From assembly GCF_022370835.2 (NCBI RefSeq), contig NZ_CP092365.1:1116001-1180000 (forward strand): a DNA stretch of 64,000 nucleotides, given 5' to 3'. Positions 3,390-27,349 of the stretch are shown here, in pieces. Each line of letters starts with the position of its first letter. Within the stretch, counting starts at the first letter, position 1. The DNA comes from Mycolicibacillus parakoreensis (lineage in GTDB: Bacteria > Actinomycetota > Actinomycetes > Mycobacteriales > Mycobacteriaceae). A program made the translations under genes and the position numbers. The notes below the pieces were generated by a model, which was not told where the DNA came from, did no database searches, and saw only the letters and a list, made by a program, of their open reading frames with translations.

Positions 3390-5561
3390 TCATCGCGGCC
3401 GACCCTCGCCGCCGCGTGCGGTTGCCACCGCCTCGCGCATGATCGCGCCCACGGCGTTCGCCTGCGGATCGGTGAAGATCTCCTCGAGTAGCCGGATGGT
3501 GCCGTCGGGACCGCCCAGGGGAACACGCCAATTCGGGTACTCGTCGATGGTGCCGGGCTGATTCTGGGTGCGACGTTCCCCGACCGCGTCGGGCAGCGCC
3601 ACCGCCAGCATCCGCGAGGGAGTGCGGCACAGATACCGATACAGCGCGTTCACCAGCGCGGCGATGTCCACGGCCGGGTCGGCGAGGTCCGGCAGCGTCG
3701 GGATCAGGCCGACCCGGTGCACTTCGGTCAACCACGCGGTCAGTGCGGCACGGTCGGCGTGCAGCTCCTCGCCGACCGGCCGGGTCAGCAACCCCAGCTC
3801 GGCGCGCAGGCGCACGTGCTCGCCGGCCAGGTACCCCGCGGTGGGCGGAAGGTCGTGGGTGGTCACCGCCGAGAGGCAGTAGTGGCGCCACTGCTCGGCG
3901 GGGCGGGGACGCCCGTCGCCGTCGGATTCGAACCACAGGATCGAGGTGCCCAGCAGGCCGCGTTCCCGCAGATAGTCGCGTACCCACGGCTCCACGGTCC
4001 CCAGGTCTTCGCCGATGACCAGCGCCCCCGCCCGGTGTGCCTCCAACGCGACGATGCCGATGAGCGCCTCATGGTCGTAGTGCACATAGGTGCCGGCGGT
4101 CGGCGGCGCTCCCGCCGGGATCCACCACAGCCGAAACAACCCGATGATGTGATCGATGCGGACACCGCCGCTGGAGCGCAGCACCGCGGTGATCATCGCG
4201 CGAAACGGCCGGTACTCCTGCTCGGCGAGCCGATCGGGGCGCCACGGCGGCTGCGACCAGTCCTGGCCGAGCTGATTGAACTCGTCCGGCGGGGCGCCCG
4301 CGGTCACCCCGGTGGCCAACGCGTCGTGCAACGACCACGCGTCGGCGCCGGTCGGGTGGACCCCGACCGCGAGGTCGTGGACGATGCCCACCGTCATGCC
4401 CGCCCGCCGGGCCCGGGACTGGGCGGCGGCGAGCTGCTCATCGAGTTGCCACTGCAGCCACCGGTGAAAATCCACCGCACCCGTGTGGGCGGCGGCGAAC
4501 TCGGCGACCGCCGCCGAATCGGGGTGCTGCAGTGCGGTGGGCCAACGGTGCCAGTCGGGGCCGTACCGGTCGGCCAGGGCGCACCACACGGCGAAGTCCT
4601 CCAGCGCGGCACCTTCGCGCCGGCGGTACGCGGCATACGCCCATTGCCGCCCGGCGGACCGGGGCAGCTGGTGGACGAGTTCAAGGACCTGCCGTTTCGC
4701 CGCCCAGGCCATGTCGCGGTCGAGGAGTCGAGACCGTTCGGCGTGCTGCTGGACCTGGGCGCGCAGGTGGCGCGCCGGGCTGTGTCGGGGCAGGTCGGCG
4801 AACTCGGTGATCTCCTCGATGCGCAGGTACAGGGGATTGACGTAGCGCCGCGACGTCGGCAGATAGGGGGAGGGCTCCATCGGTGGTGATGTCGCCGCGG
4901 CGTGCAACGGGTTGACCAGGAGAAAATCGGCGCCGTGACGTGCGGTCGACCACACGGCCAGGTCGGTCAGGTCCGTGAGGTCGCCGACTCCCCACGAGGC
5001 GCGGGAACGCACGCTGTACAGCTGGGCGGTCAGGCCCCAGCAGCGCCGGGCGCCCAGGCGCTCCGGCAGGCCCAACCAGGCCGGCGTCACGATCAGGGCG
5101 GTGTCGTGCTCCTCGGTGCCCGACCGCAGCGCGACCCGGTGATAACCCAGGGGCAGATCGGACGGCAGGACGAAGCTGGCCTCGCCGACCAGGCGGTCGG
5201 CGAGGCGGAACGGCGCGGTGAAATTGTCGATCTGGCGCACGTCGCCGCGTCGGGTGCCGTCTTCGAGGCGCACCTCCACCTCGGCCGGGTGCCCATGGGT
5301 CACGTGCGCCCAGAACGTGGTCGGCGCCCCTTCGCGGGCGACGACCGTGGCCGGCAGGGCACGCGTCCAGTACCTGCGATCCAGCTCGGCGAGGGCCGCG
5401 CGCCGTTCGGGTTCGGTTGCCGCGGCCACCCCCAGTGCGGCCAGCACCGCCACCACCGTGGCGGGTGGGACCGCGACCAGGCGCTGCGAGCCGTCCCGGT
5501 ACTCGGTGGCCACGCCGAGCCGGTGGGCCAGATCCCGCAACGACGGTGCCGGGTCGGTCAT
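3390..5561 (-). CDS. malQ: 4-alpha-glucanotransferase (amylomaltase, GH77)
   Basis: 723 aa, the usual actinobacterial MalQ length (Mtb Rv1781c about 724). It transfers alpha-1,4-glucan segments between malto-oligosaccharides in the cytosol, in glycogen and maltodextrin metabolism. Start ATG 5561 has a strong GGAGGAG; an open extension further upstream has none. GH77 hallmarks are visible: GVRIDHIIGLFRLWW with the nucleophile Asp, VIGEDLGTVEPWV with the acid/base Glu, and TTHDLPPTAGYL with the third acidic residue. The N-terminal 150 residues are the extra domain of long bacterial MalQ enzymes. Position just left of eccB5 in divergent orientation matches the Mtb ESX-5 border, which anchors the locus identity. 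Confidence 0.95.
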   Translation of the reverse strand: MTDPAPSLRDLAHRLGVATEYRDGSQRLVAVPPATVVAVLAALGVAAATEPERRAALAELDRRYWTRALPATVVAREGAPTTFWAHVTHGHPAEVEVRLEDGTRRGDVRQIDNFTAPFRLADRLVGEASFVLPSDLPLGYHRVALRSGTEEHDTALIVTPAWLGLPERLGARRCWGLTAQLYSVRSRASWGVGDLTDLTDLAVWSTARHGADFLLVNPLHAAATSPPMEPSPYLPTSRRYVNPLYLRIEEITEFADLPRHSPARHLRAQVQQHAERSRLLDRDMAWAAKRQVLELVHQLPRSAGRQWAYAAYRRREGAALEDFAVWCALADRYGPDWHRWPTALQHPDSAAVAEFAAAHTGAVDFHRWLQWQLDEQLAAAQSRARRAGMTVGIVHDLAVGVHPTGADAWSLHDALATGVTAGAPPDEFNQLGQDWSQPPWRPDRLAEQEYRPFRAMITAVLRSSGGVRIDHIIGLFRLWWIPAGAPPTAGTYVHYDHEALIGIVALEAHRAGALVIGEDLGTVEPWVRDYLRERGLLGTSILWFESDGDGRPRPAEQWRHYCLSAVTTHDLPPTAGYLAGEHVRLRAELGLLTRPVGEELHADRAALTAWLTEVHRVGLIPTLPDLADPAVDIAALVNALYRYLCRTPSRMLAVALPDAVGERRTQNQPGTIDEYPNWRVPLGGPDGTIRLLEEIFTDPQANAVGAIMREAVATARGGEGRPR

Positions 5562-7403: not shown

Positions 7404-10400
7404 AGCGTGGATTTGCGCGCCCGACACCGGCGCCGGCGCCGACCGTCAAACCGGAGAACCTGGGCCTGCCGACACCGCTGAGTGTCCCTCCCCCGGAGGA
7501 GAAGCCGTGGTGGCTGGTGGTGATCGGCGTCCTGGTGGTCGGCCTGGTGGTCGGCATGGTCGCGATGACGGTCGCCAGCGGGTCGCGGATGTTCCTCGGT
7601 GCCGGGGCGATCTTCCCGATCTTCATGATCGGCGGTGTCGCGATGATGATGTTCAGCGGACGCTTCGGCGGCGGCCAGCAGCAGATGAGCCGGCCCAAGC
7701 TCGACGCGATGCGCGGGCAGTTCATGGTGATGCTCGACCGGCTGCGCCGGACCGCCGGCGAGTCCGCCGATTCCATGGACGCCAACTACCGGTGGTTCCA
7801 CCCGGCGCCGCGGAGCCTGACCGCCGCGGTCGGATCCAACCGGATGTGGGAGCGCCGACCCGACGGCATGGACCTCAACTTCGGTGTCGCGCGCATCGGT
7901 GTCGGCATGGTGCGCCCCGAGGTGACCTGGGGCGAGCCCAACGACATGCCCACCGACATCGAACTGGAGCCGGTGACCGGTAAGGCGTTGCAGGAGTTCG
8001 GCCACTACCAGAGCGTGGTCTACAACCTGCCGAAGATGGTCTCGCTGCTCGCTGAGCCCGGCTACGCGCTGGTCGGGGAACGCGAACAGGTCCTCGCGTT
8101 GGTTCGGTCCGTGATCTGCCAGCTCGCCTTCTCGCACGGGCCCGACCACTTGCGCATGATCGTGGTGAGTTCTGATGTGGCCGAATGGGATTGGGTCAAA
8201 TGGCTGCCGCATTTCGGTGACCCGCGACGTCACGACGCCGCGGGTAACGCGCGGATGGTGTACCCGTCGGTGCAGGAATTCGGTGCCGAGCACGGTGACC
8301 TGTTCGCCGGACGGGGCTCGTTTATGCCCCGCTTCGCCAATGCGCAGTCGGAGCTGCCGACGCCGCACTATGTGATCATCGCCGATGTCGCCACCGAGGA
8401 GTGGGGTTATGCGATCAGCGGCGACGGCATCGACGGGATGACGTTCATCGACGTGACCGGTTCCTCGGTGCCGGCCTGCGCCGCACCGGAACGAACACTG
8501 CGGTTCACCGACGACCACGGAGTGATCGAGGCGCTGCCGCGTGACCGCGACACCTGGATGGTCATCGACGACAACGAATGGTTCTTCGCCCTCGCCGACC
8601 AGATCAGCGTGCTCGATGCCGAGCGGTTCGCCCAGCGGATGGCGCACTGGCGCCTGGCCGAGGCATACGAGGAGATCGGTCAGCGGGTTGCCTACATCGG
8701 CGCACGAGACATTCTGTCCTACTACGGTATCGAAGACGCCGGCAGCATCGATTTCGAAGCGCTGTGGGCCAGCCGCAGTGCGATGCTGTCCCGCGACCGG
8801 CTGCGGATCCCGTTCGGAAACCGCTCCGACAACGGCGAACTGCTGTTCTTGGACATGAAGTCGCTCGACGAGGGCGGCGACGGCCCGCACGGGGTGATGT
8901 CCGGAACGACCGGATCGGGTAAGTCGACGCTGGTGCGGACGGTGATCGAATCGCTGCTGCTGGCCCACCCACCGGACCAGTTGCAGTTCGTGCTGGCCGA
9001 CCTCAAGGGTGGTTCGGCGGTCAAGCCTTTCGCCGGTGTGCCGCACGTCTCCCGCATCATCACCGACCTGGAGGAAGACCAGGCACTGATGGAGCGGTTC
9101 CTGGAGGCGATGTGGGGTGAGATCGCGCGTCGTAAAGCGGTCTGCGACACCGCCGGTGCCGACGACGCACGCGAATACAACGAGATTCGCGCCCGCATGC
9201 GGGCCCGCGGCGAGGACATGGAGCCGCTTCCGATGCTGGTGGTGGTCATCGATGAGTTCTACGAGTGGTTCCGCATCATGCCCACCGCGGTGGAGGTCCT
9301 CGACTCGATCGGACGCCAGGGACGCGCCTACTGGATCCACCTGATGATGGCCTCCCAGACGATCGAGAGTCGCGCGGAAAAGCTGATGGAGAACATGGGG
9401 TACCGGCTGGTCCTCAAGGCGCGCACCGCCGGCGCGGCGCAGGCCGCGGGCGTGCCGAATGCGGTGAACCTACCCGCCCAGGCCGGTTTGGGTTACTTCC
9501 GCAAGAGCGGCGACGAGGTGACCCGGTTTCAGGCGGAGTTCCTGTGGCGGGATTATCGACGGGGTCGCTCCCTGGTGGATGGCGATGCGCCACTGACCCA
9601 TTCGGTCGACTACATCCGCCCGCAGCTGTTCACCACCGGATTCACGCCGGTGGAGGTCGCCATCGGCGGTCAGGACATCGAGCCGGTCGTCGAGCAGACG
9701 CCACCGGTCATCGAACCCGACGAGGAGGACGAAGAGGAGCACATCCGCACGCCGAAGGTCGGCACGGTGATCATCGACCAGCTGCGCAGGATGGACTTCG
9801 AGCCGTACCGGCTGTGGCAGCCGCCGTTGGACGTTCCCCTGGCGGTCGATGAATTGGTCAACCGCTTTCTCGGGCGTCCGTGGCAGGAGAACTACGCGGC
9901 CGACGCCAACCTGATCTTTCCGGTCGGGGTCATCGACCGGCCGTACAAGCACGACCAGCCGCCGTGGACGGTGGACACCTCCGGTCCCGGCGCCAACTTG
10001 TTGATCCTGGGTGCCGGCGGGGCCGGAAAGACCACCGCCCTGCAGACCCTGATCTGCTCGGCGGCCCTGACCCACACCCCCGAGCAGGTGCAGTTCTACT
10101 GCCTGGCCTACAGCGGGACCGCGTTGATGACGGTGTCCGGGCTGCCCCACGTCGGTGGGGTAGCCGGCCCCACCGACCCCGACGGGGTGCGGCGCACCGT
10201 CGCGGAGATGCTGGCGCTGGTGCGTGACCGCAAACGCAGCTTCCTGGAGTACGACGTCGCCTCGATGGAGGTGTTCCGGGCCCGCCGATTCGGCGGCGAG
10301 CCCGGGAGCGTGCCCGATGACGGGTTCGCCGACGTCTTCCTGGTGATCGACAACTACCGGGCGCTGGCCGAGGAGAACGAAGTCCTCATCGAGCAGGTGA

Positions 10401-13686: not shown

Positions 13687-13986
13687 ATGTCGTTGTTGAC
13701 GGTTGAGCCGGAGCTGTTGACCGCTGCGGCCTTCGAGTTGGAGTCGATCGGTACCGCGCTGAACGCCGGGAACGCGGCTGCGGCGGCACCGACGACGGGT
13801 GTGGTTCCGGCGGCGGTCGACGACGTGTCGACGTTCGCGGCGTCACGGTTCGCCCAGGCGGGTCAGATGTATCAGGCGGTGGCGGCCCAGGCTGCGGCGA
13901 TCCACGAGGAGTTCGTGGCGACGTTGCAGGCCAGCGCGGGATCGTATGCGCTGACCGAAGCCGCGAACCGGGCGTCGGTTCTTTAG
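13687..13986 (+). CDS. PE family protein, ESX-5 locus
   Basis: 99 aa, the length of a stand-alone PE domain protein (PE18/PE19 group in Mtb). It opens MSLLTVEPELLTAAAFELES and has the two-helix hairpin with the YxxxD/E-type secretion signal region near the C-terminus (YALTEAANRAS). ATG 13687 follows GGGAGAGGATGCA. PE proteins heterodimerise with a PPE; the PPE at 14017 starts 30 bases downstream, so they are a probable pair exported by ESX-5 with EspG5 as chaperone. Confidence 0.94.
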   Translation: MSLLTVEPELLTAAAFELESIGTALNAGNAAAAAPTTGVVPAAVDDVSTFAASRFAQAGQMYQAVAAQAAAIHEEFVATLQASAGSYALTEAANRASVL

Positions 13987-14016
13987 GCGGTTCTCCGGAT
14001 AGATCGAGGGTCAGTC

Positions 14017-15150
14017 ATGTTCATGGACTTCGGGGCAGTACCTCCCGAGATCAATGCGGCCCGGATATACACCGGTCCGGGCGCGGCGCCACTGCTGGAG
14101 GCGGCGTCGGCGTGGCAGGCTTTGGCCAAGGAATTGAGCACCGCGGCGGCGGCCTACCAGAGCCAGGTCAGTGGCCTGACGGCGAAATGGCACGGTCTGT
14201 CGGGCCAGCGGATGGCGGCGGCGGCGGCGCCGCACATTCAGTGGTTGAACCAGACGTCGGCGCAGGCGGGGCAGGCCGGCATGCAGGCGGCCACCCAGGC
14301 GGCCGCCTACGAGACCGCGTTCGCGTCGATGGTGCCGCCCCCGGTGATCGCGGCCAACCGCAGCCAGAAGATGGCGCTGATCTCGACGAATTTCCTCAAC
14401 CGCAACGCGCCGGCGATCATGGCCACCGACGCGGCGTACATGCAGATGTGGGAGCAGTGCGCGGCGGCGATGTACAGCTACGCGGCGAGCACCGAGCAGT
14501 CCAGTACGCTCCCGCAGTTCAGTGTCGACCGGGAGAACACCAACCAGTCCTCCCAGGCGGCAGCCACCGCCAAGGCCGCCGCCGATGGCGCTGCAGGGGC
14601 GGAGGACAAGGCCACCAACCCGGTGACCGATTACCTCAGCAACCTGTACGACGGGTACACGCCCAACGACGCGCTCAACGACACCCTCGAACCGCCCTAC
14701 CGTCTGGCCGGCATCTTCAAAAACAGCCAGGGGCTGCTCCAGAGCATGACCAAGACGTCGAGTTCGTCCAGCGATGCCGTCAGCGATGCGGTCACCGGGC
14801 CCACCATGGTGACGATCCCGGGGTTGGCCGCCGCGATGGGACAGGGCGGCGGCGCGCTGGGGTCGGCACCGGCGGCGTCCGCGCCCCTGTCGGCGAGCAT
14901 GGCCAACGCGTCCCGGTTGGGCGGGCTGTCGGTGCCGGGCGGCTGGGCCGGGGCCGCCAAGGCGCTCAACCCCACACTGGCCGCACCCAACCTCGGTTCG
15001 GCGCTGAGCACGCCGAACACGGCGGGGCACATGCTGGGTGGGGTGCCACTGTCCGGGGCCGGCGCCGGTGCCGGTCGCGGCATCGGCGATGGTGTCCTGC
15101 GGATCGGGCCCCGCTCGTTCACCATGCCACGACCGCTGTCTGCCGGGTAA
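14017..15150 (+). CDS. PPE family protein (PPE-SVP type), ESX-5 locus copy 2
   Basis: 377 aa. PPE domain at residues 1-180 (FMDFGAVPPEINAARIYTGP), hydrophobic tip segment, and C-terminal SVP motif GGLSVPGGWAGAA near residue 310. The end PRSFTMPRPLSAG matches that of the PPE at 12071, confirming duplication. The middle region (residues 180-260) differs and is rich in Ala, Asp and Ser. It follows the PE at 13687 by 30 bases as a PE-PPE pair. It is probably an ESX-5 substrate displayed at or beyond the outer membrane. Confidence 0.94.
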   Translation: MFMDFGAVPPEINAARIYTGPGAAPLLEAASAWQALAKELSTAAAAYQSQVSGLTAKWHGLSGQRMAAAAAPHIQWLNQTSAQAGQAGMQAATQAAAYETAFASMVPPPVIAANRSQKMALISTNFLNRNAPAIMATDAAYMQMWEQCAAAMYSYAASTEQSSTLPQFSVDRENTNQSSQAAATAKAAADGAAGAEDKATNPVTDYLSNLYDGYTPNDALNDTLEPPYRLAGIFKNSQGLLQSMTKTSSSSSDAVSDAVTGPTMVTIPGLAAAMGQGGGALGSAPAASAPLSASMANASRLGGLSVPGGWAGAAKALNPTLAAPNLGSALSTPNTAGHMLGGVPLSGAGAGAGRGIGDGVLRIGPRSFTMPRPLSAG

Positions 15151-15244
15151 CGGGAAAGGGGCGTATCAACCAGCGGATATGCGATCATTGTCGGTAAGAA
15201 AAACAGCAGGAACGACACGACTTTTCCAGTAAGGAGTTGCCAAG

Positions 15245-15541
15245 ATGGCTTCGCGTTTGATGACTGATCCGCAGTTGATGCGGGATATGGCCGGCCGGTT
15301 TGAGGTGCATGCTCAGACGGTTGAGGATGAGGCGCGGCGGATGTTCGCGTCGTCGCAGAGTATTTCGGGGGCCGGGTGGACCGGGATCGCCGAGCGGACG
15401 TCGTTGGACACGATGGGGCAGATGCAGACGGCGTTTCGCAACATCGTGAACATGCTGCACGGGGTGCGTGACGGGTTGGTGCGTGACGCGAACGTCTATG
15501 AGCAGCAGGAAGCCGCGGCGCAGTCGTCGCTGAGCAGCTGA
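15245..15541 (+). CDS. esxM: ESAT-6-like WXG100 protein EsxM
   Basis: 98 aa, very close to Mtb EsxM (Rv1792 group): [20 protein letters not shown], a W-x-G-type turn (GAGWTGIAE) and the C-terminal secretion motif region YEQQEAAAQ. It forms a helical-hairpin heterodimer with EsxN and is exported by ESX-5. ATG 15245 has AAGGAG 8 bases upstream. A second copy with an identical protein sequence is at 25350-25646. Confidence 0.96.
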
Positions 15542-15570
15542 GATCCGACTTTTATCGAAGGGATTTGACG

Positions 15571-15855
15571 ATGACGATTAACTACCAGTTCGGTGATGTC
15601 AATGCTCATGGGGCGTTGATCAAGGCGCAGGCGGCGTCGTTGGAGGCCGAGCATCAGGCGATCATCCGCGATGTGGTGGCGGCCGGGGACTTCTGGGGTG
15701 GTGCCGGTTCGGCGGCCTGCCAGGAGTTCATCACCCAGTTGGGTCGCAACTTCCAGGTGATCTACCAGCAGGCGGCCACCCACGGCTCCAAGGTGCAAAA
15801 CGCCGGCAACAACATGGCTTCCACCGATTCGGCGGTCGGCTCCAGCTGGCTCTAA
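15571..15855 (+). CDS. esxN: ESAT-6-like WXG100 protein EsxN
   Basis: 94 aa, matching Mtb EsxN: MTINYQFGDVNAHGALIKAQ, W-G turn DFWGGAGS and C-terminal DSAVGSSWL. It is the partner of EsxM and an ESX-5 substrate. ATG 15571 is preferred over TTG 15565 because it reproduces the known N-terminus; AAGGGA lies 8 bases upstream. A large stem-loop follows at once. An identical protein is encoded at 25676-25960. Confidence 0.96.
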   Translation: MTINYQFGDVNAHGALIKAQAASLEAEHQAIIRDVVAAGDFWGGAGSAACQEFITQLGRNFQVIYQQAATHGSKVQNAGNNMASTDSAVGSSWL

Positions 15856-21389: not shown

Positions 21390-23224
21390 CCGGTCCACAG
21401 TCCAGCGGAAGCGACGCCCGCAACGCGATGGTCGCCGGGCTGTTGGCCTCCGGGATCTCGGTCAACGGGTTGCAGCCGAGCAACAACCCCAAGGTGGCCG
21501 CCCAGATGTTCAGCACCGCCACCGCGCTGGATCCGAGCATGTGCGACGCGTGGCTGGCCCGCATCCTGGCCGGTGACGACAGTCTCGAGGTGGTCGCCAA
21601 CGCCTGGGCCGCGGTGAAGACCTTCGGGTGGGAGACCCGGCGGCTCGGCGTGGCCGACCTGCAGTTTCGTCCCGAGGTCTCCGACGGGCTGTTTCTGCGG
21701 CTGGCGATCGGCAGTGTCGAATCATTGGCCGCCGCCTATGCCGCCGCGCTCCTGGAGGCCAAACGCTATGACGAGGCGGCCCGACTGCTCGATGAGACCA
21801 CCGCGCGTCAGCCGATCGATGCCGAAGTGCTCAGCTACGTGCGGGGTCTGCTGTATTTCCGTACCGGGCGCTGGCCCGACGTACTGACCCAGTTCCCCGC
21901 CGCGACGATGTGGCGCAGCCCCGAGTTGAAGGCCGCGGCCGCGGCGATGGCCACCACCGCCCTGGCCTCCCTGGGGGTCTTCGAGGAGGCCACTCGGCGC
22001 GCATCGGAAGCCATCGAAGGCGACCGCGTCCCGGCGGCCGCCAACGTCGCGCTCTACACCCAGGGGCTGTGCCTGCGCCATCTGGGCCGTGAGGACGAGG
22101 CGGTGGAGTTGCTGCGCCGGGTGTACTCCCGCGACGCCACCTTCGGCCCGGCCCGTGAGGCGCTGGAGAACCGCGAGTACGGGTTGATCATCACCGACCC
22201 GGAGACGATCGAGGCACGCACCGACCCGTGGGACGTCGACAGCGCGCCGACCCGCGAGCAGGCCGAGGCGGCGCGGCACGCCGAGACCGCGGCGAAGTAT
22301 CTGGCCGAGGGCGACGCCGAACTCAACGCCATGTTGGGCATGGAGCGGGCCAAACGCGAGATCCGGTTGATCAAATCCACCACCAAGGTGAACCTGGCCC
22401 GCGAGAAGATGGGCCTGCCGGTTCCGGTCAGCTCCCGCCATGCGCTGCTGCTCGGCCCGCCCGGGACCGGCAAAACGTCCGTGGCGCGCGCGTTCACCAA
22501 ACAGCTGTGCGGGCTCACGGTGCTGCGCAAACCCCTGGTCGTGGAGACCAGCCGCACCAAGCTGTTGGGCCGCCACATGGCCGATGCGGAGAAGAACACC
22601 GAGGAGATGCTCGAAGGGGCTCTCGGTGGAGCGGTCTTCTTCGACGAGATGCACACCCTGCACGAGCGCGGCTACTCCCAGGGCGACCCGTACGGCAACG
22701 CCATCATCAACACCGTGCTGCTGTACATGGAGAACCACCGCGACGAACTCGTGGTCTTCGGTGCCGGATACGCCAACGCGATGGAGAAGATGCTCGACGT
22801 CAACCCCGGGCTGCGGCGACGGTTCTCCACGGTCATCGAGTTCTACAGCTACACCCCGCCGGAGTTGATCGCGCTGACCCAGCTGATGGGGCGCGAAAAC
22901 GAGGACGTCATCACCGACGAGGCGGTGGCGGTGCTGTTGCCCTCCTACACGGAGTTCTACGAGGAGGAGAACTACTCCGAGGACGGCGATCTCATCCGCG
23001 GGATCGACGTCTTGGGCAACGCCGGCTTCGTGCGCAACGTCGTGGAGAAGGCCCGCGATCACCGCAACGCCCGTCTCGACGACGAGGACCTGGACGCGCT
23101 GCTGGCCAGCGACCTGACCGAGTTCGACGAAAGCCAGCTGTTGCGCTTCAAAGAACTCACCGCCGAGGACTTGGCGGAGGGACTGAACGCAGCGGTCGCC
23201 GAAAACAAGAACAGCGCATCGTAG
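21386..23224 (+). CDS. eccA5: ESX-5 cytosolic AAA+ ATPase EccA5
   Basis: 612 aa (Mtb Rv1798, 610). An N-terminal TPR-like helical domain (residues 1-280) precedes a CbxX/CfqX-type AAA+ domain with Walker A GPPGTGKT (357-364), Walker B AVFFDEMHTL and an arginine-finger segment (PGLRRRFSTVIEF). It is thought to release PE-PPE clients from EspG5 for delivery to EccC5. ATG 21386 overlaps the eccE5 stop (ATGA); longer in-frame extensions run inside eccE5 and are not used. It is the last gene of the ESX-5 core; the following 97 bases hold the M-box promoter. Confidence 0.97.
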   Translation: MTGPQSSGSDARNAMVAGLLASGISVNGLQPSNNPKVAAQMFSTATALDPSMCDAWLARILAGDDSLEVVANAWAAVKTFGWETRRLGVADLQFRPEVSDGLFLRLAIGSVESLAAAYAAALLEAKRYDEAARLLDETTARQPIDAEVLSYVRGLLYFRTGRWPDVLTQFPAATMWRSPELKAAAAAMATTALASLGVFEEATRRASEAIEGDRVPAAANVALYTQGLCLRHLGREDEAVELLRRVYSRDATFGPAREALENREYGLIITDPETIEARTDPWDVDSAPTREQAEAARHAETAAKYLAEGDAELNAMLGMERAKREIRLIKSTTKVNLAREKMGLPVPVSSRHALLLGPPGTGKTSVARAFTKQLCGLTVLRKPLVVETSRTKLLGRHMADAEKNTEEMLEGALGGAVFFDEMHTLHERGYSQGDPYGNAIINTVLLYMENHRDELVVFGAGYANAMEKMLDVNPGLRRRFSTVIEFYSYTPPELIALTQLMGRENEDVITDEAVAVLLPSYTEFYEEENYSEDGDLIRGIDVLGNAGFVRNVVEKARDHRNARLDDEDLDALLASDLTEFDESQLLRFKELTAEDLAEGLNAAVAENKNSAS

Positions 23225-23285: not shown

Positions 23286-23291
23286 TTGACG
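23286..23291 (+). promoter_or_regulatory. Putative -35 element of the M-box transcript
   Basis: TTGACG lies about 35 bases before the first bases of the M-box aptamer. The matching -10 is probably within CAGTATTGC (23309-23317); spacing is 17 to 20 bases depending on the choice. It indicates transcription independent of the ESX-5 core operon. Confidence 0.45.
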
Positions 23292-23321
23292 GCGAGCGCA
23301 GACGGTGTCAGTATTGCTGTT

Positions 23322-23490
23322 GCATGCACCTCGCTAGGTGAGGCGTCTGCATGGACAAAGGCCACTGACCTTGAACGTCGAGAGACGCCCCGGGTCAGGA
23401 CAGCTCCTCCCGGCTTAAGGGTTGAGCCCAAGTGGCTTTCGGGAGAACCGGATACGCCGTGCAGTGCCGAAACTCAGACGAGAGGGGTGC
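23322..23490 (+). ncRNA. M-box (ykoK leader) Mg2+ riboswitch aptamer
   Basis: The conserved M-box blocks occur in order: CTCGCTAGGTGAGGC (23330-23344), the GCATGGA segment, ACGTCGAGAGACGCC with GGGTCA (23375-23398), a helix around CTCCCGGCTTAAGGG, and GTGCCGAAACTC with CGAGAGGGG at the 3' end. This riboswitch senses Mg2+; in Mtb copies precede Rv1535 and the PE20-PPE31 operon. Here it precedes PE-PPE-esxM-esxN-PPE. A terminator hairpin follows within 5 bases, fitting an OFF-at-high-Mg2+ switch. Edges are approximate; identification is by motif recall, not by a covariance search. Confidence 0.9.
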
Positions 23491-23494
23491 GGCG

Positions 23495-23521
23495 CCCGAC
23501 ACATCAGTCGGGTTGCTTCTT
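23495..23521 (+). terminator. Intrinsic terminator of the M-box expression platform
   Basis: CCCGAC (23495-23500), loop ACATCA, GTCGGG (23507-23512), then the T-rich TTGCTTCTT. It sits directly after the aptamer, so Mg2+-bound aptamer would favour termination and low Mg2+ read-through into the PE/PPE/esx genes 270 bases downstream. Confidence 0.7.
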
Positions 23522-23585
23522 CCCCTGACTGTGCACGCGTGGCGACACCCCCGTGTGTCCTGGCTGTGAGGAGGTGAGGGCGAGA

Positions 23586-23666
23586 TTGAGTCCCAGCGAT
23601 AGTCATTATCCGGCTTCGATGATCAGTCCGTTCCGATCCGGCTCCAGCATCATCTCCGCTGCCTGA
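23586..23666 (+). CDS. Candidate leader peptide between M-box and PE (26 aa)
   Basis: TTG 23586 opens MSPSDSHYPASMISPFRSGS and stops at TGA 23664 after 26 codons. A strong GAGGAGG lies about 11 bases upstream and serves no other recognisable gene in a leader where coding is otherwise absent. Leader peptides are known in Mg2+-regulated mgt leaders of enterobacteria, so a role in control is conceivable, but this peptide matches nothing I recognise. The TTG start and long spacing lower confidence. Confidence 0.35.
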   Translation: MSPSDSHYPASMISPFRSGSSIISAA

Positions 23667-23792: not shown

Positions 23793-24092
23793 ATGTCCTT
23801 CGTCTTCACTCAACCCGAGTTTCTGACCGCCGCCGCCGCGGAACTGACCGGTATCGGCTCCGCCGTGCAGGCCGGCAACACCGCTGCGGCCGGTCCGACC
23901 ACCGGGGTCTTCCCCGCCGGCGCCGACGAGGTGTCGATGTTGACCACCGCGCAGTTCGTGGCCCACGCCCAGCATTACCAGGCGGTGGCCGCCCAGGCCA
24001 CAGCCATCCACGAGCAGTTCGTTGCTGTGTTGAGCGGCAACGCCGACGCCTACGCGGTGACCGAAGCCGCGAACGCGGCAGGTGCTGCCTAA
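23793..24092 (+). CDS. PE family protein, M-box-controlled cluster
   Basis: 99 aa PE-only protein: MSFVFTQPEFLTAAAAELTG, helical hairpin and YAVTEAANAAG at the C-terminus. ATG 23793 has a near-ideal AGGAGG five bases upstream. It is the first structural gene after the M-box leader. The PPE at 24110 starts 17 bases after its stop, so they form a PE-PPE pair, an expected ESX-5/EspG5 client. It differs from the PE at 13687 in many positions, so it is not a recent duplicate, unlike the nearby esx genes. Confidence 0.94.
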   Translation: MSFVFTQPEFLTAAAAELTGIGSAVQAGNTAAAGPTTGVFPAGADEVSMLTTAQFVAHAQHYQAVAAQATAIHEQFVAVLSGNADAYAVTEAANAAGAA

Positions 24093-24109
24093 ACCGGAAG
24101 GGGCCGGTG

Positions 24110-25303
24110 ATGTTTGTTGACTTTGGCGCACGTCCACCGGAGATCAACGCCGCCTTGATCTACGGCGGTGATGGTTCGGCGACGATGCAGGCCGCGGCCG
24201 CCGCCTGGGACGGGTTGTCGGCCAACCTGCAGTCGACGTCGAATTCGTACAAGGCCGTGATCTCGCGGCTGGCGACCGAGGAGTGGTTGGGCCCGTCGTC
24301 GGCGGCGATGGCGACGAAGGTCACGCCGCACCTGATGTGGATGGATACCGCCGCGACCCAAGCCGAGCAGACCGCGATGCAGGCACGTGCGGTGGTGGCG
24401 GCGTTCGACGGGGCCTTCGCGTTGACGACGCCGCCGCCGGTGATCGCAGCCAATCGGAGCCTGCAGGCGTCGTTGATCGCGACGAATTTCCTGGGGCAGA
24501 ACACCGGGGCGATCATGGCCACTGAGGCGCTCTACATGGAGATGTGGGCGCAGTGCGCCACGGCGATGTACGGTTACGCCGCCAGCGCCGGGGCCGCCGC
24601 CCAACTGGCGCCGTTTGCTACGCCGACCCAGAACGCCAACCCCGCCGGGCAGGGGCTGCAGGAGGCGGCGAAGAGCGAAGCGGGGGCTCGATCCGGCGCG
24701 GGAGGCACCCAGAACGTGCTGTCGGGTCTGCTCGGAAGTCTGTTCAACTCCGGGGAGTCCGGGGGCATCCTCGGCGACGCCGGGGCCGCGGGCATCGGAC
24801 CGAACGCCAACATCTGGAACACGTTGACCTCCACCGGGATGATCAACCCGGCGGTGGCCAGTTCGATGATCGCCGACATGGCGGTCGTGCAGGAGTTCAA
24901 CGAGGCCGTGCCGGGGCGCTTTGCACCCGGCAGCTTCGCGCCGGCTCTGCCCGCCGTCCAACCGGCCACCACGGCGATGTTGGCCAGTGCCGGCCTACCG
25001 GCCTCGGCGACCGGCGGGCTGGGCTCGGCCCCGGCATCGGTGTCGGCGGGGATGGCGCGGGCAACCCCGGTCGGTGTTCTGTCGGTGCCCGCATCGTGGA
25101 ACGCGGCGACGCCGACCGCGGCTGCGGCCAACGTGTTGCCCGGGCACAGCCCGGCGGCGGCACCGACCGGTGGCCACGGTGCTCCCGGTGTGCCACTGGC
25201 GGGAATGGCTCGCGGCGGCAGTGCCGCCGGACCGCGCTACGGGATCCGGCCGACCGTGATGGCGCGGCCACCGGCGGCCGGATACGCACCGGAGTTGTTC
25301 TGA
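24110..25303 (+). CDS. PPE family protein (PPE-SVP type), M-box-controlled cluster
   Basis: 397 aa. PPE domain at residues 1-180 (MFVDFGARPPEINAALIYGG; MWAQCATAMYGYAAS), SVP motif VGVLSVPASWNAA near residue 325 and a C-terminus PTVMARPPAAGYAPELF shared with the PPE at 26168. ATG 24110 follows GGAAGGGG; GTG 24107 directly before it is possible. It pairs with the PE at 23793. The middle segment contains the NPNANIWNTLTSTGMINPA-like conserved block also found in the 26168 PPE, showing these two are paralogues distinct from the 12071/14017 pair. Confidence 0.94.
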   Translation: MFVDFGARPPEINAALIYGGDGSATMQAAAAAWDGLSANLQSTSNSYKAVISRLATEEWLGPSSAAMATKVTPHLMWMDTAATQAEQTAMQARAVVAAFDGAFALTTPPPVIAANRSLQASLIATNFLGQNTGAIMATEALYMEMWAQCATAMYGYAASAGAAAQLAPFATPTQNANPAGQGLQEAAKSEAGARSGAGGTQNVLSGLLGSLFNSGESGGILGDAGAAGIGPNANIWNTLTSTGMINPAVASSMIADMAVVQEFNEAVPGRFAPGSFAPALPAVQPATTAMLASAGLPASATGGLGSAPASVSAGMARATPVGVLSVPASWNAATPTAAAANVLPGHSPAAAPTGGHGAPGVPLAGMARGGSAAGPRYGIRPTVMARPPAAGYAPELF

Positions 25304-25349: not shown

Positions 25350-25646
25350 ATGGCTTCGCGTTTGATGACTGATCCGCAGTTGATGCGGGATATGGCCGGC
25401 CGGTTTGAGGTGCATGCTCAGACGGTTGAGGATGAGGCGCGGCGGATGTTCGCGTCGTCGCAGAGTATTTCCGGTGCCGGGTGGACCGGGATCGCCGAGC
25501 GGACGTCGTTGGACACGATGGGGCAGATGCAGACGGCGTTTCGCAACATCGTGAACATGCTGCACGGGGTGCGTGACGGGTTGGTGCGTGACGCGAACGT
25601 CTATGAGCAGCAGGAGGCCGCGGCGCAGTCGTCGCTGAGCAGCTGA
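25350..25646 (+). CDS. EsxM-like WXG100 protein, second copy
   Basis: 98 aa, protein identical to that of 15245-15541. The DNA differs at only a few silent sites (for example TTCCGGTGCC for TTCGGGGGCC). It pairs with the EsxN copy downstream as an ESX-5 substrate. ATG 25350 with AGGGAGAGG upstream. The near-identity together with its own upstream region indicates recent duplication or gene conversion; the functional difference is probably in expression, since this copy lies behind the M-box. Confidence 0.95.
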
Positions 25647-25675: not shown

Positions 25676-25960
25676 ATGACGATTAACTACCAGTTCGGTG
25701 ATGTCAATGCTCATGGGGCGTTGATCAAGGCGCAGGCGGCGTCGTTGGAGGCCGAGCATCAGGCGATCATCCGCGATGTGGTGGCGGCCGGGGACTTCTG
25801 GGGTGGTGCCGGTTCGGCGGCCTGCCAGGAGTTCATCACCCAGTTGGGTCGCAACTTCCAGGTGATCTATCAGCAGGCGGCCACCCACGGCTCCAAGGTG
25901 CAAAACGCCGGCAACAACATGGCTTCCACCGACTCGGCGGTCGGCTCCAGCTGGCTGTAG
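25676..25960 (+). CDS. EsxN-like WXG100 protein, second copy
   Basis: 94 aa, protein identical to 15571-15855. The identity of DNA extends from the esxM start to the stop of esxN, including the 29-base spacer with one change. The stop codon and everything after it differ, and the 15-bp stem-loop that follows the first copy is absent. Expected to dimerise with EsxM and be secreted by ESX-5. Confidence 0.95.
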   Translation: MTINYQFGDVNAHGALIKAQAASLEAEHQAIIRDVVAAGDFWGGAGSAACQEFITQLGRNFQVIYQQAATHGSKVQNAGNNMASTDSAVGSSWL

Positions 25961-26167: not shown

Positions 26168-27349
26168 GTGTTCACGCCCAACTTCGCCGCGCGGCCACCC
26201 GAGGTCAACGCCACGTTGATCCACGGTGGTGACGGGTCGGCGACATTGCTGCTCGCAGCATCGGCGTGGGACGCATTGGCGCTGAACCTGCGGTCGGCCG
26301 CGCACTCCTACCGCGGTGTCGTCACCCGCCTGACCACCGAGCAATGGTTCGGGGCCTCCTCGGCGGCAATGGCCGGCAAGCTCATGCCCTACGTTCGGTG
26401 GACGGAGACCACGGCGAGCGCCGCCGAACACACAGCGCTACAAGCGAAGAACGCAGCCGGCGCTTTCGAGGCCGCGATCGCGGTGACGGTGCCGCCCACA
26501 GCGATCGTCGCGAACCGAACCCATGTGGAGAGCTTGTTGGCGACGAACGTTTTCGGCCAGAACACCGCGGCGATCCTGGCCGCCGAGGCGCGGTACCTGG
26601 AGATGTGGGCGCAGTGCGCCGCCGCGATGTACGGCTATGCTGCCGGCGCGTCGACGGCGGTGCAGCTGACGGAATTCTGCCCACCCGGTGGGCAGAATTC
26701 CGGGCCCACCGACTCGTCGGCGACAGAAAAGACGGCACAGCAAGCGGCGCGGGCCGATGCGGCCGGACCGACAGAGTCGGGCCCGTTGGCGACGATCCTG
26801 GGTCGGCTGTGGGACTCCTCGCCGTCCGACGGATGGCTCGGCGACCCCGGTGGCGGCGGGATCGGGCCCAACGCCAACTTCTGGAACACGTTGACCTCCA
26901 CCGACATGGTCAATCCGGCGATGATCACCTCGGTGCTGGCTGATCTGGCGGTGGTGCAGGAATTCAACGAGGCGGCACCGGGCGCATTCGCGCCGGGCGG
27001 TGTGGCTCCGGTGGCGCCGCCGGTGAGTTCGGCCGGGTTGGTCAACGCGAGTGTGCCGCCGGCGACCGCGCCGGCGGCCCCCGCATCCGTGACCGCCGGG
27101 ATGGGGCGGGCGTTGCCGGTCGGAACACTGTCGGCGCCGGCGGCGTGGGGTGCGGTCGCGCCGACCGCGCCGAGCACCACGGTGCTGCCCGGGCACAGCC
27201 CGGCCGCCACGCCACACGGCGGGCACGGCGCCCCGGGGGTGCCGCTGGCCGCCCGCAACGGGGGCACCGCCGGCGGCCCGCGCTATGGGGTGCGGCCGAC
27301 CGTGATGGCCCGACCCCCGGCCGCCGGGTATGCACCGGAGCTGTTCTGA
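26168..27349 (+). CDS. PPE family protein with divergent N-terminus, no adjacent PE
   Basis: 393 aa. It opens MFTPNFAARPPEVNATLIHG instead of the usual MxxDFxxxPPE, but the PPE fold (MWAQCAAAMYGYAAG at about residue 145) and the C-terminal block ending PTVMARPPAAGYAPELF match the PPE at 24110. The SVP motif is altered to TLSAPAAWGAV. It lacks a neighbouring PE, so it must use another partner, perhaps the PE at 23793. Residues 168-178 (EFCPPGGQNSG) are encoded by a perfect 31-base palindrome not present in the paralogue. GTG 26168 follows a short ORF by four bases. Confidence 0.92.
   Translation: MFTPNFAARPPEVNATLIHGGDGSATLLLAASAWDALALNLRSAAHSYRGVVTRLTTEQWFGASSAAMAGKLMPYVRWTETTASAAEHTALQAKNAAGAFEAAIAVTVPPTAIVANRTHVESLLATNVFGQNTAAILAAEARYLEMWAQCAAAMYGYAAGASTAVQLTEFCPPGGQNSGPTDSSATEKTAQQAARADAAGPTESGPLATILGRLWDSSPSDGWLGDPGGGGIGPNANFWNTLTSTDMVNPAMITSVLADLAVVQEFNEAAPGAFAPGGVAPVAPPVSSAGLVNASVPPATAPAAPASVTAGMGRALPVGTLSAPAAWGAVAPTAPSTTVLPGHSPAATPHGGHGAPGVPLAARNGGTAGGPRYGVRPTVMARPPAAGYAPELF
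26671..26701 (+). repeat. Perfect 31-bp palindrome inside the PPE coding region
   Basis: Arms GGAATTCTGCCCACC (26671-26685) and GGTGGGCAGAATTCC (26687-26701) flank a single central C. The stretch is in frame and codes for an insertion-like segment relative to the PPE at 24110. It would form a strong cruciform or RNA hairpin. Confidence 0.75.

Follow-up and report, generated by a model that had tools for sequence, protein, structure and literature searches.

In Bacillus subtilis, the ykoK M-box uses an intrinsic terminator placed before a Mg2+ transporter gene (PMC12810186). For Mycobacterium tuberculosis, the main text of the same paper describes the pe20 M-box as masking the start of uORF2 (Rv1805A), a short open reading frame, in a mechanism coupled to Rho; it places a canonical intrinsic terminator at neither M-box termination site of that species, and Rho depletion raises read-through at pe20 and only marginally at rv1535. 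The uORF2 family carries a conserved proline at residue 7, and the pe20 transcript extends to mgtC (PMC12810186). PE20 and PPE31 are reported to be needed for Mg2+ uptake (PMC12607722, PMC12209268).

The stretch analysed here (the window), 64,000 nucleotides of the genome of the slow grower Mycolicibacillus parakoreensis (contig NZ_CP092365.1, positions 1,116,001 to 1,180,000), carries an M-box that resembles that of the M. tuberculosis pe20 (Rv1806) operon in aptamer class, in the SD1/anti-SD/SD2 layout, in the presence of uORF2 and in the PE and PPE genes that follow (PMC12810186). Unlike the pe20 operon, the window cluster includes esxM-esxN, has no mgtC among the genes between the M-box and position 27349, and begins with a uORF2 that has a TTG start and histidine at position 7. 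With B. subtilis ykoK it shares the aptamer family RF00380, but it has no supported terminator and leads into PE, PPE and Esx genes. We consider it likely that the locus is a pe20-type M-box operon whose lineage-specific cargo, a second PE-PPE-esxM-esxN quartet together with one PPE gene, is switched by Mg2+ through a translational and Rho-dependent route. This kind of riboswitch, and its connection with PE/PPE genes and with Mg2+, have already been described (PMC12810186, PMC12607722, PMC12209268); the new element is the cargo, namely esxM-esxN in an M-box operon. An Esx pair in such an operon was not found in the open-licence literature searched, and the main text of PMC12810186 contains no occurrence of esx, type VII, ESX-5 or T7SS.

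The M-box and its leader

An Rfam covariance-model search placed RF00380 on the plus strand at 23323-23493, covering model positions 1-169 of 169 at 144.8 bits (E 8.6e-33) against a gathering threshold of 44 bits. The M-box proposed in an initial annotation of this DNA was thus borne out, at full length, by an Infernal-type check. The eccA5 frame ends at 23224 and the M-box begins 98 bases later; a probable promoter lies between them, from which transcription would start near 23321. The leader contains the following parts:

23286..23314, plus strand: probable promoter, TTGACG (23286-23291), 17 nt, CAGTAT (23309-23314); kept in relatives
23323..23493, plus strand: M-box (ykoK) Mg2+ riboswitch aptamer; RF00380, 144.8 bits
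23480..23489, plus strand: SD1, or anti-anti-SD (GAGAGGGGTG), in the 3' strand of aptamer helix P1; from the sequence, the closing-helix pairing of the covariance-model alignment and its recurrence in aligned leaders
23494..23513, plus strand: hairpin named a terminator in the initial annotation; a hairpin at this site is common, a T-rich tail is not
23516..23525, plus strand: anti-SD pyrimidine tract (CTTCTTCCCC), from RNAalifold; has two possible partners, SD1 or else SD2 together with the start of uORF2
23544..23559, plus strand: second conserved hairpin, GACAC...GTGTC in the window; RNAalifold, 53 leaders
23568..23574, plus strand: SD2 (GAGGAGG), ribosome site of uORF2; alignment and sequence
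23586..23666, plus strand: uORF2, Rv1805A homologue, TTG start, 26 aa (MSPSDSHYPASMISPFRSGSSIISAA); alignment and translation

For comparison, M-boxes were collected from named eccA5 loci, from further fetched stretches (100 chosen among the best matches listed) and from the window, giving 163 distinct M-boxes after 5 of 168 had been removed as exact DNA duplicates, with related strains counted separately. Short loci (L001-L003, L006-L035 and L116-L135) and matches of 100 bits or less (relics, for example L041, L052 and L062) were left out. In 77 of the 163, referred to below as pe/ppe-type, the first gene recognised within 6.5 kb was a PE or PPE gene, recognition being by comparison with the window proteins only. 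A candidate second aptamer type ending in CGAGGTGC proved to be the antisense of minus-strand M-boxes and was rejected, as was, for the same reason, an M-box 3 in front of thiC; later counts took in M-boxes on either strand that scored above 100 bits.

The nearest relative by EccA5 is Mycolicibacillus koreensis (97% identical). TTGACG and the promoter spacing are the same in M. koreensis and M. trivialis, with the second hexamer reading CAGTAT in the former and CACTAT in the latter. Promoter scores averaged 8.0 of 12 over the 77 pe/ppe-type M-boxes, compared with 4.35 in shuffles, and the window scored 8; a stricter 9-of-12 scan for promoters found no site. Alignment of the window with these two relatives showed strong conservation from the aptamer through uORF2, the first hairpin excepted.

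From the aptamer start onwards, SD1, anti-SD and SD2 follow one another as in the pe20 leader, and SD2 and uORF2 (23568-23666) had been absent from the initial annotation. Since this layout matches the pe20 platform, uORF2 would be the first regulated reading frame. Its start region is conserved, with Pro7 replaced by histidine in the window and three near relatives; among 65 automatic calls behind pe/ppe-type M-boxes, 49 had Pro at residue 7, 10 had Ser, 5 had His and 1 had Asp.

Consensus folding with RNAalifold used 53 leaders, the remainder of 73 pe/ppe-type leaders once near copies had been removed. It paired the GGGG of SD1 with the CCCC of the pyrimidine tract, one pair being A-U for G-C in 4 sequences, and gave a short helix of three pairs involving the 3' part of SD2. 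In the second hairpin, which elsewhere mostly reads GGCAY...RTGCC, one pair changed from G-C to A-T in 3 sequences and another from A-T to G-C in 1; the leader sequences are related, hence these compensatory changes represent few events.

The source genome (3.94 Mb, 2 contigs) holds three M-boxes, the window copy included. The other two lie at 6940-7107 of L004 and 10117-10286 of L005 (minus strand), and both are followed by an SD2 and a uORF2-like frame and then by unannotated small frames, with a DUF222/HNH gene farther behind the L004 M-box.

Termination and translation in the leader

In the model of the initial annotation, the Mg2+-bound aptamer lets the hairpin at 23494-23513 work as an intrinsic terminator, a route with a precedent in B. 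subtilis ykoK (PMC12810186). The hairpin exists: it has 7 bp and is followed by TGCTTCTTCC, with 5 T in an 8-base window, and the M. koreensis leader gives a similar terminator match. Within the 75 nt after SD1 the window scores as a terminator match, and so does 1 of 20 shuffles, a borderline result. The combination of hairpin and T-rich tail, however, stayed at chance level, with 2 terminator-like sites over 4.8 kb compared with 2.3 in shuffles. Within their first 45 nt, 56 of the 77 pe/ppe-type leaders had a hairpin of 6 bp or more (30.2 in shuffles), yet one with at least 5 T of 8 occurred in only 4 of the 77 against 4.4 in shuffles, and one with at least 6 T of 8 in none, so that an intrinsic terminator was rejected as a conserved feature of these leaders. 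The terminator match is also missing in the leaders of M. trivialis (L138) and L137, and the T-rich tail of the window hairpin is the anti-SD tract itself. The M. tuberculosis findings on pe20, with Rho-sensitive read-through and no canonical terminator described in PMC12810186, argue in the same direction. We therefore retain the hairpin and regard terminator control by the bound aptamer as very improbable, a weak intrinsic terminator in the window being possible.

Over all leader types, 25 of 154 gave a match in the 75 nt after SD1 (7.7 expected). This excess, which counts in favour of the terminator model, sits in leaders without PE/PPE genes (21/82, compared with 5.6 in shuffles); some other mycobacterial M-boxes, those with SD1-bearing leaders and no PE/PPE, may use intrinsic termination.

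In the translational and Rho-dependent reading that we prefer, ample Mg2+ would close the aptamer, and helix P1 would hold SD1. With SD1 held in P1, the unoccupied anti-SD tract could cover SD2 and the start of uORF2, and the untranslated RNA would be terminated by Rho. When Mg2+ is scarce, P1 would open and SD1 would pair with the anti-SD tract; the freed SD2 would allow uORF2 to be translated and transcription to continue into PE, PPE, esxM and esxN. The translational platform and Rho are taken from M. tuberculosis, while the aptamer, leader parts, gene order and Esx identity were observed in the window. By this analogy the window copy would respond to Mg2+, and its transcript would be expected to reach esxN. 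The likely benefit would be more of a PE/PPE pair aiding Mg2+ uptake, as reported for PE20/PPE31, plus extra EsxM-EsxN.

Folding support for the switch was weak. In partition-function calculations on the 53 leaders, SD2 was more accessible when SD1 was included than when it was omitted in 47, and more accessible than with a scrambled SD1 in only 36. When the measure was extended to the entire start region of uORF2, the intact SD1 gave greater openness than its omission in 40 leaders and than its scrambling in 34, and scrambling the anti-SD region opened this stretch in only 24. The window behaved opposite to expectation at SD2 (openness 0.397 with SD1, 0.434 without) and as expected over the uORF2 start region (0.509 and 0.445, respectively). 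Duplex energies of SD1 and of SD2 with the spacer were barely better than those of shuffles across 154 leaders (mean z -0.29 and -0.42); in the window they were poorer than in shuffles (+0.40 and +0.89). Because these tests were weak and mixed, the case for the switch is carried by conservation and by the M. tuberculosis results, not by folding.

Cargo genes and their core paralogue

Upstream of the M-box lie genes for EccC, PPE, PE, PPE, EsxM, EsxN, EspG, EccD, a mycosin and EccA, in a locus that we take, from its gene order, to be ESX-5, with eccE5 before eccA5; the M. tuberculosis pe20 M-box presumably occupies the same position downstream of its ESX-5 locus. Reading frames and domain matches confirmed the order given in the initial annotation, with the M-box placed after eccA5 and heading PE-PPE-esxM-esxN-PPE, and its view that the secretion core is outside the switch agrees with the position of the secretion machinery genes upstream of the M-box. 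Past 27349 the next gene is a minus-strand frame for an acyl-CoA synthetase. The cluster and its paralogue are as follows:

13687..15855, plus strand: core paralogue PE-PPE-esxM-esxN within the ESX-5 locus, without an M-box; 628 bp esxM-esxN match
23793..24092, plus strand: PE protein gene; PF00934, E 3.7e-32
24110..25303, plus strand: PPE protein gene (PPE-SVP type); PF00823, E 1.9e-57, and PF12484, E 1.9e-16
25350..25646, plus strand: esxM, second copy; TIGR03930, E 5.7e-17, above cut-off
25676..25960, plus strand: esxN, second copy; TIGR03930, E 3.9e-06, below cut-off; protein identical to the core copy
26168..27349, plus strand: PPE protein gene, last in the cluster; PF00823, E 1.9e-52

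In the NCBIfam WXG100 model, the EsxM-like protein scored 61.7 bits against a cut-off of 44.85 and the EsxN-like protein 27.0, under the cut-off. Both Esx products match core proteins exactly, EsxM (25350-25646) that at 15245-15541 and EsxN (25676-25960) that at 15571-15855, an identity with the products of 15245-15855 that the initial annotation lacked. It had spoken of a full ESX-5 cargo set; PE-PPE-esxM-esxN-PPE does stand behind the M-box, but the core keeps its own PE-PPE-esxM-esxN, in the same gene order, 10 kb upstream in the eccC5-espG5 interval and outside the switch. The two esxM-esxN blocks are 97.9% identical over 628 bp, and the PE-PPE DNA is 66% alike over 762 bp. EsxN has four matches in the source genome at E up to 1e-20, three of them 100% and one 99% identical over 94 residues. 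The switch would add Esx dose, not a unique Esx protein.

The gaps from PE through PPE and esxM to esxN are 17, 46 and 29 bp, and 207 bp separate esxN from the listed start of the last PPE gene, which is a less certain member of the transcript. In trees of PPE N-termini, the window PPEs behind the M-box grouped with the window core PPEs (support 0.98) and fell outside the clade of PPEs behind the M-boxes of kansasii-type species, in a set picked by a motif missing some PPEs and with many low inner supports. This grouping, in trees drawn without M. tuberculosis PPE31 itself, speaks against orthology of the window PPEs to PPE31. The simplest reading of these sequence comparisons is an old M-box leader followed by a paralogue of the core quartet.

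Distribution among mycobacteria and competing readings

RF00380 was present in 99 of 198 genomes of the genus. At named eccA5 loci (the best 80 of 141, many on short contigs), an M-box above 100 bits was found in 51, and a further 3 had only weaker matches; the pe20-type M-box is common beside eccA5 in slow growers. An esx-like match preceded the next M-box in 16 of the 77 pe/ppe-type cases. Intact esxM and esxN frames in the order PE-PPE(-PPE)-esxM-esxN occurred in 7 (the window, L137, L138, L143, L170, L177 and L207), with two PPE genes before esxM in L170. In 2 the contig ends inside esxM (L036, L172), in 1 esxN is broken (L141), and 6 have no more than esxN-like fragments or a remote match (L063, L078, L090, L100, L103, L113). 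L138 is M. trivialis and L137 fits Mycobacterium sp. 1274756.6, both near relatives of the window; fitting names for the others are M. xenopi (L177), M. noviomagense (L170), M. branderi (L207) and Mycobacterium sp. MFM001 (L143). Being intact in 7 genomes, the M-box-PE-PPE-esxM-esxN arrangement extends beyond a single species, and the esx pieces behind other M-boxes hint at its older, wider presence.

After eccA5, L143 carries three successive M-boxes (1923-2091, 4215-4382 and 8801-8968, minus orientation), each followed by PE and PPE and the middle one also by esxM-esxN, with identities of 73-77% between the modules over about 1.3 kb. In L142 and L207 the tandem consists of two modules. These repeats suggest that leader and PE-PPE cargo may duplicate and spread as one unit.

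Several other arrangements were seen near eccA5 or around M-boxes. In the Mycolicibacter cluster, PE and esxM-esxN directly follow eccA5 as in the window, but no M-box was found ahead of them; in L085, L095 and L109 the M-box lies farther on, before another PPE gene. L071 (8149-10476) has eccA5-PE-PPE-esxM-esxN with no M-box detected, a natural contrast to the window. L177 and L170 each carry two diverging, back-to-back M-boxes, one heading PE-PPE(-PPE)-esxMN and the other a stretch without a PE/PPE match. Weak matches of 26-47 bits, likely M-box relics, occur just after eccA5 in kansasii/szulgai-type loci (L039, L040, L041, L042, L043, L045, L046, L050), all with a full M-box farther on except L041, whose contig ends early. 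Reduced M-boxes follow eccA5 in M. leprae (L052, 11919-12078, 84 bits) and M. lepromatosis (L062, 11908-12074, 97 bits); both precede PE and PPE matches, which in L062 are fragmented.

Two readings would leave the Esx pair without a part in the Mg2+ response. The M-box might govern only uORF2, PE and PPE, with esxM-esxN and the last PPE gene transcribed from promoters of their own and Esx cargo independent of Mg2+; the 207-bp gap fits this, as does a terminator-like site between PE and PPE (24093-24108) that is within chance. The short spacing from PE to esxN, the equal gene order behind M-boxes in other species and the M. tuberculosis pe20 transcript reaching mgtC (PMC12810186) all stand against it, and we judge it improbable. 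Alternatively, the Esx pair may be a passenger, part of a duplicated PE-PPE-esxM-esxN module that arrived downstream of an M-box already in place and that gene conversion has kept from diverging, with no Mg2+ role. The near-identity of the esxM-esxN blocks beside the diverged PE-PPE DNA, the four near-identical EsxN copies, the clustering of the window M-box PPEs with the core PPEs and the esxN pieces behind the M-boxes of other species all fit such a history; against it, 7 genomes (three close to Mycolicibacillus, plus four more) retain intact esx frames after the M-box. We see this as a real possibility, though a doubtful one. A further reading, speculative and in our estimate unlikely, makes M-box-uORF2-PE-PPE, with or without esxM-esxN, a self-contained cassette copied in tandem next to eccA5, which would put whole ESX-5 cargo quartets under Mg2+ control; Mg2+ starvation would then alter what is secreted and not the machine, the Esx pair being induced as needed to export or install the PE/PPE proteins of Mg2+ uptake.

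The Mg2+-switched pe20-type operon remains the reading we favour, and by analogy with M. tuberculosis, Mg2+ shortage may raise the supply of ESX-5 cargo. A known Mg2+ switch would thereby be extended from PE/PPE genes to the WXG100 pair EsxM-EsxN, tying an ion-sensing RNA to ESX-5 substrate supply. The locus offers a test case for the role of uORF2, and one for the several identical esxMN copies kept by mycobacteria, in which the same protein would come under different control.
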